DNA of 46,620 nucleotides from Thermoanaerobaculaceae bacterium (lineage in GTDB: Bacteria; Acidobacteriota; Thermoanaerobaculia; Thermoanaerobaculales; Thermoanaerobaculaceae). The stretch is from assembly GCA_013388425.1 (NCBI GenBank), contig JACADV010000031.1, forward strand, positions 1-46,620. The letters run 5' to 3'. Position numbers and translations under genes: made by a program. Below the pieces are notes generated by a model. That model ran no database searches. It had not been told where the DNA came from and saw nothing but the letters and a program-made list of their open reading frames with translations. The stretch's first letter is position 1; every line of letters begins with the position of its first letter. Shown in pieces: positions 23,466-31,200 of the stretch.

Positions 23466-23861
23466 TCAGCGACACGCTGCCACCACTCGCGACAGCGCCT
23501 GGGCCACCGGGGTGCCCACGGCCTCCAGCGCCGGCTCGCCAACTGCGCCCATCACCACCCGTGGATCCATGGCCCGCACCACCGTCTTGCCCCCCTCCAC
23601 CGACACGGTCACGTTGCAGGGCAAGAGGACCCCCACCTCCGGGGCCACCTGGAGGGCGGCGTGGGCCGAGGCCGGGTGGCAAGCCCCCAGGATGAGGTAG
23701 GGTTCGCGCTCCACGCCCAGCTTGGCCTTGAGGGTAGCCGCCACGTCGATCTCCACCAGTACGCCAAACCCCTCGGCCGCGAGCGCTGCGCGGGCGCGAG
23801 ACACCGCCTCCTCGAACGCCAACGAAGACACCACCTCGAACGCTACTTTCGTCTTGCTCAT
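23466..23861 (-). CDS. DUF302 family protein
   Basis: A 131-aa DUF302 protein. The signature PYLILGACHPASAHAALQV followed by GVLLPCNVTV is clear, with two cysteines in conserved places. The biochemical role of the family is not settled; members often lie near thiol-redox, sulfur or metal-stress genes. The start MSKTKVAFEVV is chosen for its GGGGGTG Shine-Dalgarno sequence. Last gene of the ArsR/zinc-ribbon cluster. Confidence 0.85.
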   Translation of the reverse strand: MSKTKVAFEVVSSLAFEEAVSRARAALAAEGFGVLVEIDVAATLKAKLGVEREPYLILGACHPASAHAALQVAPEVGVLLPCNVTVSVEGGKTVVRAMDPRVVMGAVGEPALEAVGTPVAQALSRVVAACR

Positions 23862-23963
23862 GGTCACCCCCATCGCGGCCCGCCACCGGGGCAGCCGCCT
23901 GTCTCCTGCTCCAGCGCTGTGTTCAGCTGTCCCCCAGGGCTCGACCGAGCCCGCTCAGGAAGC

Positions 23964-24176
23964 TCAGGTAAAGCCGCCCGTACCGCAGGAGGAAGGGGAC
24001 GGTGCCCCGCAGGGGGCCGGGGCAGCGCCCACCTTGGCTGCAAAGGTGGAGAGTCGCTTCTCCACGTCGGTGCTGGCACAGGACGGGCACTGCAGCCCGG
24101 CGCTGCTCTCCCCGAGGCGCTGCAGCACCTCGAACCGCTTTCCGCAGACCCGGCACTGATACTCGTACAACGGCAT
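23964..24176 (-). CDS. FmdB-type zinc ribbon protein
   Basis: A 70-aa protein with the FmdB/CxxC regulatory-protein signature: MPLYEYQCRVCGKRFEV, then CPSCAST, giving two CxxC pairs for one zinc. The C-terminus is short, Pro/Ser-rich and contains two more cysteines. Members are annotated as putative regulators without firm evidence. GGGAGGG Shine-Dalgarno sequence. It follows another zinc-ribbon reading frame by 44 nt. Confidence 0.88.
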   Translation of the reverse strand: MPLYEYQCRVCGKRFEVLQRLGESSAGLQCPSCASTDVEKRLSTFAAKVGAAPAPCGAPSPSSCGTGGFT

Positions 24177-24220: not shown

Positions 24221-24463
24221 TCACCCTCGCTCTTCCCCGGGTACTTCGCAGCCACAGGTCGGGCAGCGCTGATCCTCGGGCCCCAGCGGCCCGCCGCAGC
24301 TCTGGCACACCTGCCCCTCGCCCGGGGCACTGCCACACTGCCCCCCCTGCCGACCGCCGGCCGGCCTGGGCACCGCTCAGGTGGGTACACCCAGCCGCGG
24401 CAGCACCACCCACTGCAGCAGCACCCACCCCGCAAGAATCGCCAGGAGGACGAGAACGTCCAT
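24221..24463 (-). CDS. Membrane helix plus zinc ribbon with in-frame TGA (selenoprotein candidate or broken gene)
   Basis: One continuous frame of 81 codons. It starts at ATG 24463, 6 nt after the arsR stop. Residues 1-28 form a single transmembrane helix (MDVLVLLAILAGWVLLQWVV) ending LPRLGVPT. Codon 29 is TGA (24379-24377). The same frame continues for 51 residues into a zinc ribbon, CQSCGG then CPTCGCE, and stops at TGA 24223-24221. The second part has no Shine-Dalgarno sequence of its own; GTG 24373 is its first possible start. On the mRNA a 17-nt hairpin with loop GGC begins 11 nt after the UGA, the geometry of a bacterial SECIS. It may encode selenocysteine, be a nonsense mutant, or be two small genes. 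Confidence 0.6.
24349..24365 (-). promoter_or_regulatory. SECIS-like hairpin after in-frame UGA
   Basis: On the minus strand GCCGGCC pairs with GGTCGGC (one G-U wobble) around a GGC loop. The hairpin begins 11 nt after the TGA and its loop begins with G 19 nt after it, which fits published geometry for bacterial SECIS elements. The surrounding sequence is so GC-rich that a chance hairpin is quite possible. Confidence 0.3.
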
Positions 24464-24469
24464 GGGACG

Positions 24470-24823
24470 CTAGCTCCCCTCGCGCAGGAAGGCCGCGCGT
24501 CCCCGCTCGATCTCTTTCTTCTCGGCGTTCACCTGCCGCTCCAGGGAGTCGCAGACACTGCTACAAATCGCAAACACCGTGGCGTCCTCGATGCGGTAGA
24601 GAATGTTGACCCCCTCCCGGCGGCAGCTCACCAGACCCGCGCGGCGCAGCACCGACAGGTGCTTGGACACGTTGGCCTGGCTGCCGCCCACGGCGCCAAG
24701 GATGTCGTTGACGCACAGCTCGCCGCCGTGGAGTGCGTGGAGGATCCGCAGCCGCATGGGGTCCGCCATGGCCTTGAGCCGATCCGCGATTCGCTCGAAG
24801 AGTATTTCCGAAGCAGCCTGCAC
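24470..24823 (-). CDS. ArsR-family transcriptional regulator
   Basis: A 117-aa winged helix-turn-helix repressor. GTG 24823 is chosen because GGAGGGG lies just upstream and it gives normal ArsR length. The DNA-binding helix is in GGSQANVSKHLSVLRRAGLV and the start of the domain in MADPMRLRILHAL. Possible metal or thiol sensing cysteines are in ELCVND (where classic arsenic sensors have ELCVC) and ICSSVCDSL. Its promoter carries an element shared with the tolC-RND promoter, so it probably represses both itself and the efflux operon. Confidence 0.92.
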   Translation of the reverse strand: MQAASEILFERIADRLKAMADPMRLRILHALHGGELCVNDILGAVGGSQANVSKHLSVLRRAGLVSCRREGVNILYRIEDATVFAICSSVCDSLERQVNAEKKEIERGRAAFLREGS

Positions 24824-24839
24824 GTCCCCTCCCCGGAAA

Positions 24840-24857
24840 CTGCATAACCACTCGGCA
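24840..24857 (+). promoter_or_regulatory. Putative ArsR operator at the arsR promoter
   Basis: CTGCATAACCACTCGGCA covers the predicted transcription start and touches the -10 box of arsR. Nearly the same sequence, CTGTATAACCATATCGGCA, overlaps the -10 of the tolC promoter on the opposite strand (31219-31201). Confidence 0.5.
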
Positions 24858-24885
24858 ATATAAGAAATCTCCGGGGCAAGGTCAA
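24857..24885 (-). promoter_or_regulatory. Strong promoter of arsR
   Basis: Minus-strand TTGACC (24885-24880), 17-nt spacer, TATATT (24862-24857). Close to sigma-70 consensus and AT-rich against the local background. Start near 24850, leader about 27 nt. It separates arsR from the upstream PII-like gene. Confidence 0.7.
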
Positions 24886-24912
24886 GTGGCGGCGGGAGCG
24901 GGTGGCGCCGAC

Positions 24913-25197
24913 TCACATGACCTCCTCGACCCCCCACACGATCATCTTCAACCGCTCGCCGCAATCGCTGCAGAAGGAGCGGATCTCCTCCACCAGGCGA
25001 TCCAGCGCCTCGGCGGTGAGCACCGTGAAGATGATGGCCGAGGTCTTAGGAAACGCCCGCGAGCCCAGCCGCGGGCCGGTAGCCCCAACTCCCACGGCAC
25101 GGGGGATCTCCGTGTACCCCACCACCCCCGCCCGATTCAGGAGCACTTCCAGCTCTTCCTTCTTCCCCTCGTCGATGATCAGCATCAAGAGCTTCAT
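24913..25197 (-). CDS. Small PII-like protein
   Basis: A 94-aa protein with the ferredoxin-like pattern of the PII/CutA superfamily: MKLLMLIIDEGKKEELEVLL, VGATGPRLGSRAFP in place of the T-loop region, and a closing strand with MIVWGVEEVM. It lacks the GlnB uridylylation context. PII-like proteins outside nitrogen control (sometimes called PII-NG) are known next to heavy-metal RND pumps, and this one follows an RND operon. Two cysteines in FCSDCGERL could bind a metal. Function is inferred. Confidence 0.65.
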   Translation of the reverse strand: MKLLMLIIDEGKKEELEVLLNRAGVVGYTEIPRAVGVGATGPRLGSRAFPKTSAIIFTVLTAEALDRLVEEIRSFCSDCGERLKMIVWGVEEVM

Positions 25198-25200
25198 TGC

Positions 25201-25389
25201 TCACTCCCTTACGCCCAGCGCCCGCAGCACCCACATCATGGGGCACCACTTGGTAAAGGCGGACTGGAGGAGGTTGAGGCCCACAAAGGCAGTGAAGGCC
25301 AAGAACCCCGGGTGCACCAGATACCCCAGCGCCACCGACACCACCACGAAGAATCCCGCAATACCCCGCAAGCCATCGTTCACTGTCAT
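25201..25389 (-). CDS. DUF2892 inner-membrane protein
   Basis: A 62-aa protein with the YgaP-type DUF2892 pattern: N-terminal NDGLRGIAGFFVVVSVALGY helix and the signature FVGLNLLQSAFTKWCPMMWV with a conserved Cys. Two transmembrane helices are expected. The start is fixed by GGAGGGAG upstream. Such proteins often lie beside ArsR regulators and sulfur or rhodanese genes; the molecular role is unknown. Confidence 0.85.
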   Translation of the reverse strand: MTVNDGLRGIAGFFVVVSVALGYLVHPGFLAFTAFVGLNLLQSAFTKWCPMMWVLRALGVRE

Positions 25390-25420
25390 CGTCTCCCTCC
25401 TTTGCACCGCGGCCAAGCCG

Positions 25421-28400
25421 CTACGCTTCGTTGCCGTCCATCTCCACCACGCGTTCGACCCCCACGGTTTTCACGTACATGTAGTACAGCAACGGGATCA
25501 CCACCAGCGTCAGCATGGTGGCCACCACCACGCCTGAGATCAGCGCCACGGCCAGGCCCTGGAAGATGGGATCCAGGAGGATCACCGTGCCGCCCACCAC
25601 CAGGGCTGCAGCTGTCAGGGCAATGGGCCGGAACCGCACCGCCCCGGCCTTCACCACCGCCTCCTCCAAGCGCTCACCGGCGGCCAGTTCCAGGTTGATG
25701 AAGTCCACCAGCAAGATCGAGTTGCGCACGATGATTCCGGCCAAGGCAATGAAACCAATCATGGAGGTGGCGGTGAAGAAGACCCCACCTAAAGCGTGCG
25801 CCGGCAGGATGCCGATCAGGGTCAGCGGGATGGGTGCCATAATGATCAACGGCGTAACAAACGATCGGAACCACCCCACCACCAGGAAGTAGATGAGCAC
25901 CAGCACCGCCGCAAAGGCCACGCCCATGTCGCGGAAGACCTCGTAGGTGATGTGCCACTCCCCGTCCCACTTCACGGCGTAGGCGGTGGCGTCCTCGGGC
26001 AGGTGGGTGGAGAGGACCCGGATCGGTTTCCCGTCGGGACCGCAGAGCGCGGCGATCCGATCCCGCATGGCAAGAATCCCGTACACGGGAGCCTCGGCCA
26101 CCCCGGCCATCTCCGCCACCACGTAGGTGACGGGCTGGAGGTTCTTGTGGTAGATGAACGGTTCGATCCCCCGCGGGGTGGGGCGCAACACCTCCCGCAG
26201 CGGCACGAGCGTGCCGGCCGGTGTGGGCACAGCAACGGCCAAGAGCCCGTCCAGGCTGGAGCGCTGCCCACGCCCAAGCCGCAGCACCACGGGCACCGGC
26301 TCCCGGGAGTGCGGGTCGTGGAGAAGACCCACCTCGGCGCCCGCCAGCGCCACCCGCACGGTGCGCGCCACCATCTCGGGCGTGATTCCCAGCCGGGAAG
26401 CCTTCTCGCGGTCCACCTCCACATCCACGAGCGGAGCCGGATCCTCCACGTACCAGTCCACGTCCACCACCCCTGGCGTGCTTTCGAAGATCTTCCGCAC
26501 CTGTTCCGCCAGGCGAGTCCGCTCCTCGAGGTCCGGGCCGTACACCTCCATCACCAGGGTGGACAGCACCGGCGGTCCCGGCGGCACCTCGGTCACCTTG
26601 ACGTTGGCGCCGTGACGCTGGCCAATGGGGGCCACCACGTCCCGCAGCGCGAGGGCAAAGGGGTGGGACGCCCGGCGGCGCTCGTGCTTGGGGACCAGGT
26701 TCACCTGCAGGTCGGCGACGAGCGGCCCCGAGCGCAGAAAGTAGTGCCGCACGAGGCCGTTGAAGTTGAAGGGCGCGGACGTCCCCACGTAGACCTGAAC
26801 ATCGCTCACCTCGGGCAGCTGCCGCACCGCCCCGGCCATCTCCCGAGCCGCCGCTGCCGTGGCCTCGAGGGTGGTGCCCTCGGGCATGTCGATCACCACC
26901 TGCACCTCGCTCTTGTTGTCGTAGGGCAGCATCTTCACCGTCACGACCTCGAACATCACCAAGCTCACGGAGACCAGCAGCAGCAACGCCACGCCCGCCA
27001 GTAGCGCCCACCGCCGCCACGCCCGCTCCAGGAGCGGTGCGAACAGGCGTGCGTAGAGGCGGTGCAGCCGCCCCTCCCCGGAGGTCTCCCGGTAGGGAGC
27101 GTGCGCCTCCCTAGCGCTGGCCATGGCCTGCTCTGCTCTCTTGCGGAACAGGCGATGGGTGAGCCACGGCGACACCACGAACGCCACCAGCAGCGAGAAG
27201 AGCATCGCCGCCGAGGCGTTGATGGGGATCGGCCGCATGTACGGCCCCATCAGGCCGGAGACGAAGGCCAGGGGCAGCAGTGCGGCCACCACCGTGAAGG
27301 TGGCGAGGATCGTGGGGTTGCCCACCTCGTCCACCGCGTAGAACGTGGCGATGCGCGGGGGTCCCCAGGCCAGGGAGTAGTGGCGGTGCACGTTCTCCAC
27401 CACGACGATCGCGTCGTCCACGAGGATGCCGATGGCGAAGATGAGGGCGAACAGTGTGACGCGGTTCAGGGTGTAGCCAAAGAGGTAGGAGGAAACCAGG
27501 GTGAGGGCCAGGGTCATGGGTACCGCCACGGCCACCACCACCGCCTCCCGGCGGCCGAGGGCAAAGGCCATCAGGACCACCACCGACAAGGTGGCCAGAC
27601 CCATGTGGAAGATCAGCTCCGAAGACTTCTCGTTGGCGGTGAAACCGTAGTCGCGGGTCTTGGTCACGGTGACGTTGGAGGGGATGACGGGTCCCCGCAG
27701 CTGCTCGAGGCGCGCATCCAGCTCCCGCACCAGTTCCACGGCGTTGCTGCCGGGTTTCTTGGCCACCGCCACGGTGACCGCCGGGGCGTCCACGTCCCTC
27801 CCCAACCCCTTGGCCTCTCCCCTCGCCCCACTCAGCATCCACACGTACTCGCCTGGTTCGTCGGCGCCGTCCACAATTTCGGCCACCTCCGAGAGGTAGA
27901 CGGGGCTGCCGTGGAACACGGCAATCACTGCGCGCGCCACCTCCTCGGCGGAGCGGAAGAAGCTCCCCACCTCCACCTGCGTTTCACGGTTGTTTTCCGA
28001 GAAGGAGCCCGCCGGCAATCGGAAGTTGAGCCCGGCCAGCGCCTGGTGGGCCTGGAGCAGCGACACGCCATGGGCCGCCAGCCGCTCGCGGTCGAACACC
28101 ACCCGCACCGCCCGCCGCTGCCCCCCCAGGACCCACACCTGCGAGACCCGGGGGTGATGGGCCAGCTCCGACTTCAGCTCCTCCGCCACCTGGCGGAGCT
28201 CGAGGGGCGTGGCCTCGTTGGACCAGAGGGTGTACGCCACCACCGGCACGTCGTCGATGCTGCGCGGTGCCACCACCGGCGGCAGCGCGCCCGGCGGGAG
28301 CTGCGGCGCCAGCTCGGCAAGCTTGGCGTGCAGGCGCACCACCGCCTGGTCGGGGTCGCTGCCCACCTTGAAGCGAGCGATGATCATACCCCCCGAGGCT

Positions 28401-28747
28401 TGGCTGGTGGAGTACAGGTACTCCACCTCGGGGATCTCGGAAATTGCCTTCTCCAACGGGAAGACGAGGCGCCGCTCCACCTCCTGGGCCGAGGCGCCCG
28501 GGAGGGCCACGAACACGTCGATCATGGGCACCGCAATCTGCGGTTCCTCCTCGCGCGGGGTCACCAGCACGGCAAAGGCGCCCAGGAGCAGGGAGAACAC
28601 CACGAAGAGCGGCGTCAGCTTCGACTCCAAGAAGGCGCGGGCGATCCGCCCCGAGATGCCGAGGGGACGCCTCGTCATCTTGAGCCGCTGCGCCTCGCGG
28701 CGCGCCTCTTCCCGCGCCTTGGCCACGTCCGTCGTCCGGCTGTCCAT
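25421..28747 (-). CDS. RND-family efflux pump, inner-membrane permease
   Basis: An 1108-aa resistance-nodulation-division permease, the proton-driven pump of a tripartite exporter. The N-terminus has a basic 45-residue extension, the first helix (SKLTPLFVVFSLLLGAFAVL), and two large periplasmic domains. TM4 reads GILVDDAIVVVENVH, with the Asp-Asp pair of drug-type (HAE) pumps rather than the pattern of CzcA-type metal pumps. The ATG overlaps the stop of the adaptor gene (TGATG); a GTG one codon earlier is possible. Operon order is TolC, adaptor, permease. The substrate is not determined. Confidence 0.93.
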   Translation of the reverse strand: MDSRTTDVAKAREEARREAQRLKMTRRPLGISGRIARAFLESKLTPLFVVFSLLLGAFAVLVTPREEEPQIAVPMIDVFVALPGASAQEVERRLVFPLEKAISEIPEVEYLYSTSQASGGMIIARFKVGSDPDQAVVRLHAKLAELAPQLPPGALPPVVAPRSIDDVPVVAYTLWSNEATPLELRQVAEELKSELAHHPRVSQVWVLGGQRRAVRVVFDRERLAAHGVSLLQAHQALAGLNFRLPAGSFSENNRETQVEVGSFFRSAEEVARAVIAVFHGSPVYLSEVAEIVDGADEPGEYVWMLSGARGEAKGLGRDVDAPAVTVAVAKKPGSNAVELVRELDARLEQLRGPVIPSNVTVTKTRDYGFTANEKSSELIFHMGLATLSVVVLMAFALGRREAVVVAVAVPMTLALTLVSSYLFGYTLNRVTLFALIFAIGILVDDAIVVVENVHRHYSLAWGPPRIATFYAVDEVGNPTILATFTVVAALLPLAFVSGLMGPYMRPIPINASAAMLFSLLVAFVVSPWLTHRLFRKRAEQAMASAREAHAPYRETSGEGRLHRLYARLFAPLLERAWRRWALLAGVALLLLVSVSLVMFEVVTVKMLPYDNKSEVQVVIDMPEGTTLEATAAAAREMAGAVRQLPEVSDVQVYVGTSAPFNFNGLVRHYFLRSGPLVADLQVNLVPKHERRRASHPFALALRDVVAPIGQRHGANVKVTEVPPGPPVLSTLVMEVYGPDLEERTRLAEQVRKIFESTPGVVDVDWYVEDPAPLVDVEVDREKASRLGITPEMVARTVRVALAGAEVGLLHDPHSREPVPVVLRLGRGQRSSLDGLLAVAVPTPAGTLVPLREVLRPTPRGIEPFIYHKNLQPVTYVVAEMAGVAEAPVYGILAMRDRIAALCGPDGKPIRVLSTHLPEDATAYAVKWDGEWHITYEVFRDMGVAFAAVLVLIYFLVVGWFRSFVTPLIIMAPIPLTLIGILPAHALGGVFFTATSMIGFIALAGIIVRNSILLVDFINLELAAGERLEEAVVKAGAVRFRPIALTAAALVVGGTVILLDPIFQGLAVALISGVVVATMLTLVVIPLLYYMYVKTVGVERVVEMDGNEA

Positions 28748-29817
28748 CACTGCAGCTCCTCCACCGGCGTCCCGTCCGCCGGCAGTGACCGCACGTCCAC
28801 CAGCACCACTTCGCCCCCGCTCAGGCCCGACAGGACTTCCACCCGCCCGTCCGGCAACCGGTTCCCCACCGTCACCGCCCGCGTCCTGGCCTTGCCCTCC
28901 TGGTCGCGGAGCACCACCATGGCCACCCCCCCCTGGAGGAGGACCGCGCGCTCCGGCACCGTGACGGTGCTCCGCCTCCCCGCCGGTATGGCAGCCCGGC
29001 CAGCCGCGCCACTGGGGATGTCCACGCCGTCCAGCTGGATCTTGACGGTGAAGGTGTGGCTCGCTGGGTTGGCCCCTGGTGTCATCTCCACCACGCGCCC
29101 AAACTCGTTCCCACCGGCCGGCGCCGCGTCCAGGCGCACGGGGATCTGGCTCCCCACCCGCACGCCGCTGGCCAAGCTCTCCGGCACCTGCACCACCAGC
29201 CGCCGCCCCGCGGCTGACTCCACCAGGAAGAGCGGGCGCCCGGGCACCGCCAGGTCGCCCACCTCCACGAGCTTGGCCGCCACTCGCCCCGCAAAGGGCG
29301 CCACCACCTGCGCGTCGGCGGCAATGGAAGCGGCAGCGGCCACCGCACCCTGCGCCTGCTCCACCGCCCCCTTGGCCTGCTCAAACTGCATCCTCGCCAG
29401 GTCCAGCTCCAGTTCCGAGGCCGCGGAGGAGGCGTGCAGCGCCACGAACCGTTCGTAGTTGCGCTGGGCCAGTGCCAGGGCCGCTTCGGCCTGGGCAAGG
29501 GCGCCCCGCGCCTGGGCCTCCTGGCCCTTGGCCGCCGCCGGATCGATTTCGGCCAGCACCTGCCCCGCCTTCACACTGTCCCCCGGCTGCACCAGCACCG
29601 CTACCACCGTTGCCATGACCCGACTCGCCACGGCCGCTGTCCGCAGCGCTTCGACGGTGCCGGACAGCTCCACCGTGCGGTCAACCTCCACCGCTGCTGC
29701 CCGGTCCACCTTGGCCCGGATCGGTGGGGGGGTGTCGGCTGCCGGCTGGGGCGCGGAGCCACCGCACGCTGCTATGACGATCGTGAGCACGAAAACCATG
29801 GTTCCCACACGCCGCAT
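28747..29817 (-). CDS. RND efflux periplasmic adaptor (membrane fusion protein)
   Basis: A 356-aa lipoprotein adaptor linking the RND permease to the outer-membrane channel. The signal is MRRVGTMVFVLTIVIAACGG, lipobox Cys18. A split lipoyl domain (VVAVLVQPGDSVKAGQVLAE and APFAGRVAAKLVEVGDLAVP) flanks an alpha-helical hairpin rich in Ala/Gln/Glu, followed by beta-barrel and membrane-proximal domains. GGAGG Shine-Dalgarno sequence. The stop overlaps the permease start. Confidence 0.93.
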   Translation of the reverse strand: MRRVGTMVFVLTIVIAACGGSAPQPAADTPPPIRAKVDRAAAVEVDRTVELSGTVEALRTAAVASRVMATVVAVLVQPGDSVKAGQVLAEIDPAAAKGQEAQARGALAQAEAALALAQRNYERFVALHASSAASELELDLARMQFEQAKGAVEQAQGAVAAAASIAADAQVVAPFAGRVAAKLVEVGDLAVPGRPLFLVESAAGRRLVVQVPESLASGVRVGSQIPVRLDAAPAGGNEFGRVVEMTPGANPASHTFTVKIQLDGVDIPSGAAGRAAIPAGRRSTVTVPERAVLLQGGVAMVVLRDQEGKARTRAVTVGNRLPDGRVEVLSGLSGGEVVLVDVRSLPADGTPVEELQ

Positions 29818-29852: not shown

Positions 29853-31187
29853 TCATTGCAGCACCGCTTCCGGTGGCTTGCCGCTCGCAACCGCCAGCCG
29901 CAACGCCGCTTCGATGGCGCGCGCGCGCGCCACCAGTTCCCGGGTTTCCGCCTCGCGACGAGCGGTGGAGGCGTCCAGGAGATCCAGCATCTTCACCACA
30001 CCACTGGCGAAGCGTTCGCGCGTGATGCGCTCCGACTCCACAGCTGCCTCCAGCGCTCTCTGGGCCGTGCGGTGGCGTTGCCACTCCGTCCGGGCCTCCT
30101 CGAAAGCCTGCCGGACCTCGAGGGCCACGCCTTCGGCAAACCGTTCCACATCCTCCGCTGCCGCCTCTGCTTCCAAGCGTGCGGCCCTGGCCGCGGCTCG
30201 ATCCGCCCCGGCGTCCAGCACCCGCCACCTGGCCACTGCCACCAGCGAGGTGGAATCCCCGTGGCTGCCAAAGAGCGTGTCGTCCACCCAGTCGCTGCGT
30301 GCCACAAGAGCTACACGCGGCCGCAGCGCTGCCCGCCGCACCTGCTCCTCCAGCGCGACGGCGCGCTGCATGGCCCGCGCTGCCGCCACATCGGGCCGGG
30401 TGCTGGCCGCCGCCAACCACTCCCCCACATCCCCCGTCACCGCCGGCGGATCCCCCAAGGGTTTCAGGTCCCACTGCAAACCCTGGTCCGCGCCCAGCCG
30501 GAAGGACAGGTTGGCCGACGCCACTTCCACACGACCCCGCGCCTCGGCCAGCAGGTCCTCCACCCGGGACAGTTCCACCTCGGCCCGCAGGAGCTCCGAG
30601 CGCACCAGCATCCCCTGCTCCACGTAAGCTCGCGCCAGGGCCACGTGACCTGCCACCGTGTCCCGGGCGCGCTCCAGCAGGCTCGCGTACTCGCTGGCCT
30701 GGGCCAGCGCCACGTACGCCTGGGCGGCCTGCAGGGCTGCCGTGTCGGCGGCCCAACTGGCCGAACGCGTGGCTGCCTCCGCAAAGGAAGCGGCCTGGGC
30801 AATGCGCCCTGAAAGCTCCCCCCCCGTGTACAGCGGCACCGCCAGCTCCAGCCGCGTCACTGCCGTGTCCAACGCCTCCGGTCGGTTGGGATCCGAGCTC
30901 ATGAGCTGTTGCAGCGAGAAGCGCTCCTGGTTCAGGGTGAGGGCAAACACCTCCGCCGGCGAGTCGGTGCGAATGTAGGTTTCCTCCAGCGTTACGGTCG
31001 GCCAGCGCGAGTCGCGGGCGCGCCGTAGCTGTTCCCCGGCTGCTTGAGCGCGCAGCTGTGCGGCCGTCACCTCGCGACTGTGCTCGCGCGCCCGCTGCAT
31101 CGCGCTCTGCAGCGAGAGCGGTTCGCGCGCAGCGGCCATCGCCGGAAGCAGAGCCAGGGTCCAGAGGAAAAGGGGAAGACGCCGCAT
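29853..31187 (-). CDS. TolC-family outer-membrane efflux protein
   Basis: A 444-aa outer-membrane channel. The start MRRLPLFLWTLALLPAMAAA is chosen because GGAGG lies 7 nt upstream, whereas an ATG two codons earlier is too close to it; the same residues form a signal peptide. The two internally repeated halves of the OEP fold are visible as long Ala/Glu/Arg-rich helices, each after a segment of the LAVPLYTGGELSGRI kind. It is the first gene of the efflux operon and has a near-perfect promoter. Confidence 0.92.
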   Translation of the reverse strand: MRRLPLFLWTLALLPAMAAAREPLSLQSAMQRAREHSREVTAAQLRAQAAGEQLRRARDSRWPTVTLEETYIRTDSPAEVFALTLNQERFSLQQLMSSDPNRPEALDTAVTRLELAVPLYTGGELSGRIAQAASFAEAATRSASWAADTAALQAAQAYVALAQASEYASLLERARDTVAGHVALARAYVEQGMLVRSELLRAEVELSRVEDLLAEARGRVEVASANLSFRLGADQGLQWDLKPLGDPPAVTGDVGEWLAAASTRPDVAAARAMQRAVALEEQVRRAALRPRVALVARSDWVDDTLFGSHGDSTSLVAVARWRVLDAGADRAAARAARLEAEAAAEDVERFAEGVALEVRQAFEEARTEWQRHRTAQRALEAAVESERITRERFASGVVKMLDLLDASTARREAETRELVARARAIEAALRLAVASGKPPEAVLQ

Positions 31188-31200
31188 AAGCATTCCTCCA

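Follow-up and report, generated by a model that had tools for sequence, protein, structure and literature searches.

A small gene on the minus strand of the window (the whole 46,620-nucleotide stretch of DNA analysed here) very probably encodes a selenoprotein, in which the UGA at residue 29 would be read as selenocysteine (Sec). This prediction comes from sequence comparison: the UGA is kept among relatives, coding sequence and a covarying bacterial SECIS (bSECIS) hairpin lie downstream of it, and the hosts mostly carry the Sec machinery. The gene had been put forward as a selenoprotein candidate from the window's letters alone, and the homologue codons, the occurrence of selA and selB and the covarying hairpin all favour that proposal.

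The reading frame and its relatives

Translation from the ATG at 24463 (minus strand) gives MDVLVLLAILAGWVLLQWVVLPRLGVPT-TGA-AVPRPAGGRQGGQCGSAPGEGQVCQSCGGPLGPEDQRCPTCGCEVPGEERG-TGA, that is, 28 codons ending in LPRLGVPT, the in-frame UGA and 51 further codons to a TGA that ends at 24221. Re-derivation returned the same coordinates, motif and 51 downstream codons as the original prediction. The elements of the gene are:

24221–24463, minus strand: predicted selenoprotein gene, 80 codons including Sec, plus stop (translation, read-through search, profile search)
24395–24460, minus strand: single transmembrane helix, residues 2–23 (AlphaFold2, pLDDT >90 over most of the helix)
24377–24379, minus strand: predicted Sec UGA codon, residue 29, directly after the conserved LPRLGVPT motif (codon counts, n = 126)
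24349–24365, minus strand: bSECIS hairpin, 7-bp stem with one G–U pair, apical loop GGC (folding, covariation, recoding test)
24224–24334, minus strand: genome-specific C-terminal tail, zinc-ribbon-like CxxC...CxxC (Pfam DZR, below cut-off)

Relatives share the helix and an LP[KR]LGVPT-U motif. When 100 related genomes were searched with read-through allowed, about 43 proved to have the frame, and in almost every case the match contained a single TGA. Profile searches place the family in 59 of 149 genomes (species) of the window's class, in about 90–99 of 396 sampled genomes of the phylum Acidobacteriota (at E 0.01, where a few matches at the weak end are chance) and, with a profile that includes more distant members, in 102 of 396 Nitrospirota genomes. 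The main alternative raised at the outset was a nonsense mutation; a mutation or sequencing error that split the gene in one genome would suit a source assembly that is fragmented and 83% complete, but recurrence of the same UGA at these frequencies in two phyla excludes it, and we assign it negligible probability. The earlier impression that both halves look like real protein is borne out, as more than 120 distinct relatives share the UGA together with both its flanks, far beyond chance.

In a 28-member alignment the invariant positions are Q17, L21, P22, L24, G25, V26, T28, the Sec column, P32, P34 and G36; these fall on both sides, and the conserved part therefore crosses the UGA. Downstream of Sec lie conserved tails (AVPxPAGGR or ESRR) with coding-type substitution, and differences at the three codon positions after the UGA (0.25/0.17/0.41) have the pattern of a constrained protein. 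Beyond the first 10 residues the tails vary in length and sequence. Four genomes (G041, G075, G123 and G124) gave two matches each; in G075, G123 and G124 the second match likewise reads across a TGA, while in G041 it is a diverged copy reading LGIDTU (L146).

AlphaFold2 models a confident helix only at residues 2–23, with the remainder disordered. Across the family the N-terminal flank of the helix carries 115 D/E versus 31 K/R and the C-terminal flank 559 K/R versus 213 D/E, a bias that favours an N-out/C-in orientation, so Sec would face the cytoplasm. At least one tail Cys is found in 116 of 127 members, often as U-x4-C in Terriglobia. The conserved unit is one helix with a short predicted Sec tail, usually containing one Cys. 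The zinc ribbon of the original prediction stands in part: the CxxC...CxxC tail is present here, matching the Pfam double zinc ribbon (DZR) at E 2.9e-4 with 21.4 bits against a cut-off of 27.3, but it does not belong to the conserved protein. Among the genomes seen it is private to that of the window, relatives having other short tails, and we dropped a reading centred on the ribbon since relatives lack it. An FmdB-like protein or some other ribbon is a possible source of the tail.

Codon 29, the hairpin and the decoding machinery

We fetched all distinct members, permitting any stop or Cys at codon 29, and the 126 recovered carry 125 TGA, one TGT (Cys) and neither TAA nor TAG. The alignment sought in the original prediction thus holds UGA or Cys only, with no Gly or Trp, and as in bacterial selenoproteins coding conservation extends to both sides of the in-frame UGA. 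An ordinary stop, whereby translation ends at the UGA with a 28-residue membrane peptide and the frame beyond it is either not translated or independent, has some points in its favour: UGA is the commonest terminator of these genes (71 TGA, 28 TAG and 27 TAA at the true ends), the helix alone resembles a complete small membrane protein and the tails differ outside their first 10 residues. Yet an ordinary stop would drift, and TAA or TAG, used at 55 of the 126 real ends (24 of 36 in Nitrospirota), never occurs at codon 29 (Fisher p 2.7e-20, phylogeny ignored), so we reject a plain stop. The coding-type substitution in the AVPxPAGGR/ESRR tails and the covarying SECIS also count against it, and we consider it very improbable.

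A DNA pattern that permitted TGA, TGC, TGT or TGG at codon 29 was scanned against about 85,000 genomes and hit 37 loci, of which 35 are true members, every one with TGA. The other two, L103 (TGC) and L106 (TGG), are chance matches without the helix; weak matches such as L148–L152 and L154 were likewise judged chance or uncertain on inspection. Several Nitrospirota members keep the UGA even where the preceding Thr differs.

The sole Cys homologue that we found, L145, comes from a genome of the same phylum. It has the same helix as the window protein with Cys at the Sec position (TGT for TGA), carries ...WVLPAMGIGTCMSGACKVP... and reads MDLTIIPEWLKAILFVAGYFALMRWVLPAMGIGTCMSGACKVP..., with the sequence CMSGAC where Terriglobia often have U-x4-C. 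Small one-helix proteins of the type LGV-x-T-Cys, raised in the original prediction, do therefore exist. L145 adjoins a YgaP-like transmembrane protein, with a CoA-disulfide reductase bearing a rhodanese-like tail nearby. A tblastn search of plasmids with the Cys homologue gave no match.

The proposed 17-nt hairpin was found again and belongs to the predicted minimum-energy fold. It begins 11 nt after the UGA, with stem strands GCCGGCC (24365–24359) and GGUCGGC (24355–24349) enclosing the loop GGC (24358–24356), which itself begins 18 nt after the UGA. By the bSECIS rule given in a review, a G occupies one of the first two loop positions and the loop lies 16–37 nt from the UGA; the conserved hairpin agrees in placement, loop G and loop distance. 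Folding the 48 nt downstream puts a short hairpin in a similar position in most members despite differing sequences (GGCC-GGC-GGCC in the window's class, GCCGA-GUC-UCGGC in Terriglobia), with G in the first two loop positions in 75 of 80 non-identical members. Hairpin scores over the same 80 members average 19.5, and those of synonymous recodings 14.2 (sd 0.4). Pairing is kept in 91% of the cells of a 27-member alignment and double changes occur in six of the seven pairs; none of 500 shuffles reaches any of these measures, and slid versions collapse. The bSECIS check called for at the outset therefore finds a hairpin that conforms to the rules and shows covariation among relatives. In some of the AT-richer members from Nitrospirota the hairpin is weak or ambiguous. 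An Rfam scan of the region gave no match for the hairpin, which says little as that library holds only described families.

The window was said to contain no sel genes, which our analysis does not contradict; selA and selB lie elsewhere in its genome. The wider search for Sec genes thus succeeded in part: selD and tRNA-Sec were not found in that genome, an 83% complete MAG, but are present in most family relatives. A tRNA-Sec with confirmed TCA anticodon occurs in 13 of the 17 family genomes searched and an over-cut-off selD in 15 of 17 (window genome included in both counts). Two over-cut-off Rfam tRNA-Sec matches in the window's own genome were discarded, being tRNA-Leu and tRNA-Ser by ARAGORN. 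The selD of most relatives in the window's family (G001–G015) has one in-frame TGA, like known Sec-containing SelD. Of 100 relatives, 89 have selB above the cut-off, as do 17 of the 19 named hosts. At E 1e-60 no selB match was obtained in some genomes with TGA members, including G039 (99% complete), either through assembly gaps or because Sec decoding was lost with the gene left behind.

These data bear also on decoding of the UGA as some other amino acid such as Trp, through a general suppressor or an altered code. The frame is open past the UGA, as such decoding would demand, but UGA terminates 71 of the same 126 genes, the sole non-UGA homologue has Cys rather than Trp, hosts mostly carry selA, selB and tRNA-Sec, and the hairpin fits the bSECIS rules; we regard this explanation as extremely improbable. 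Under the preferred selenoprotein reading, SelB with Sec-tRNA would bind the hairpin and Sec would be inserted at UGA 29, as in the established pathway.

Gene neighbourhood and possible function

The neighbouring genes in the window are:

23466–23873, minus strand: DUF302 protein, downstream (domain model; adjoins the gene in 24 of 30 class members)
23964–24176, minus strand: FmdB-family zinc-ribbon protein, downstream (domain models; adjoins the gene in 24 of 30 class members)
24470–24964, minus strand: ArsR/SmtB-type repressor, directly upstream (domain models; true start probably inside the ORF)
24913–25197, minus strand: P-II-like, PG0541-family transporter-associated protein (domain models, neighbour comparison)
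25201–25416, minus strand: YgaP-like transmembrane protein, PF11127 (domain models, neighbour comparison)
25421–28750, minus strand: RND efflux pump (AcrB/AcrD/AcrF family)
28747–29817, minus strand: membrane-fusion protein of the pump (HlyD/CusB type), start estimated
29853–31193, minus strand: TolC-like outer membrane efflux protein (OEP)

The order YgaP-like transmembrane protein, P-II-like protein, ArsR, selenoprotein, FmdB and DUF302 is widely conserved in the window's class, and in the window this cluster lies downstream of the RND pump, membrane-fusion protein and TolC. The ArsR gene ends 6 nt before the selenoprotein ATG and adjoins the gene in 26 of 30 class members; in the window its product has Cys residues at ELCV and in FAICSSVC that may be a sensing site. 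Terriglobia often have the gene after a YgaP-like gene or ArsR, with a SAM methyltransferase adjoining in some. Single members of the family lie next to OsmC or a CoA-disulfide reductase bearing a rhodanese-like tail. Nitrospirota differ: 28 of 30 loci (L178–L207) have the gene after rplQ, and it seems to be carried along by the ribosomal alpha operon, at whose end rplQ lies. Three loci of the window's class (L019, L021 and L027) have rplQ about 0.8–1.5 kb upstream with ArsR in between, apparently an intermediate linking the two contexts.

Common to the family are a membrane tether, a predicted selenol and usually a nearby thiol, with neighbours that are mostly sulfur, thiol or efflux related. 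The product would span the inner membrane with a single helix and hold Sec immediately beneath it, at the cytoplasmic face, and the Cys that usually lies about 4–15 residues past Sec could resolve oxidized selenium as a selenenyl sulfide. We tentatively suggest an ArsR-controlled, membrane-tethered selenol–thiol relay that may reduce or carry reactive sulfur (persulfide) or electrophiles, with partners that would vary by lineage among the YgaP-like, OsmC, DUF302 and CoA-disulfide-reductase/rhodanese neighbours; this is a possible function, drawn only from neighbourhoods, which differ between phyla (ArsR operon versus rplQ).

Its main rival, which we hold to be doubtful, also takes the gene as a selenoprotein: the Sec/Cys tail would be a soft-metal or metalloid ligand on a membrane-tethered chaperone feeding the RND pump. 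An ArsR/SmtB regulator and a tripartite RND pump whose fusion protein is of the CusB/HlyD type, both in the operon, the SAM methyltransferase that adjoins in some Terriglobia and the zinc-ribbon tail in the window genome are consistent with metal binding. Against this, no pump stands beside the gene in the stretches read of the Nitrospirota rplQ and CoA-disulfide-reductase contexts, which makes metal export an unlikely common denominator and the pump an unlikely constant partner, and no metal-binding motif is conserved beyond U...C.

Relation to known selenoproteins

Scans with Pfam and NCBIfam release 20 of 28 members and further diverse ones returned no model for the helix–Sec core. A 2026 inventory tabulates 119 bacterial selenoprotein families and subfamilies (PMC13188914, Table 1), and none of its entries is a one-helix membrane family with an LPxLGVPTU motif; none of the new families from deep-Sep resembles ours. 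Literature searches on the motif or the neighbours found no description, a mention in Haft and Tolstoy 2025 or Deng et al. 2026 being possible. Absent from the catalogues searched, the family would be new and, if real, of an unusual plan, one helix and a Sec tail. Gene callers that end at the UGA would truncate or skip the protein, so a common protein of two large phyla would be missing from annotation. The near-absence of Cys forms poses the question of what selenium does here that sulfur cannot, the recurring neighbours (ArsR, YgaP-like, DUF302, OsmC, CoA-disulfide reductase and rplQ) lead to testable hypotheses, and the family supplies many natural bSECIS variants for study.

With bacterial selenoproteins generally the family has in common an in-frame UGA, an adjacent bSECIS, Sec machinery in most hosts, a Cys homologue and a nearby Cys. 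The Tso selenoproteins (TsoA, TsoB, TsoC, TsoX and TsoY) are likewise small, and the named set includes an ArsR/SmtB regulator model, TsoR, against which the window ArsR scores 47 bits and does not reach the cut-off of 115. The Tso motifs LULAxC, NEPxGxxU and HSGNPxU, however, do not fit the family, and the Tso NCBIfam models gave no match among the 28 members and seven further diverse ones.

Eukaryotic SELENOK and SELENOS are single-pass membrane proteins with Sec in a short disordered cytosolic tail. The family may be likened to them in architecture only, and Sec lies near the C terminus in SELENOK and SELENOS but about five residues past the helix in the window protein. We place even weight for and against a broader reading, in which the family is a nearly Sec-obligate single-pass membrane selenopeptide of about a quarter of the sampled Acidobacteriota and Nitrospirota species, a housekeeping membrane partner (rplQ-adjacent in Nitrospirota) that would require selenium rather than sulfur, and perhaps the first bacterial instance of a SELENOK/SELENOS-like plan.
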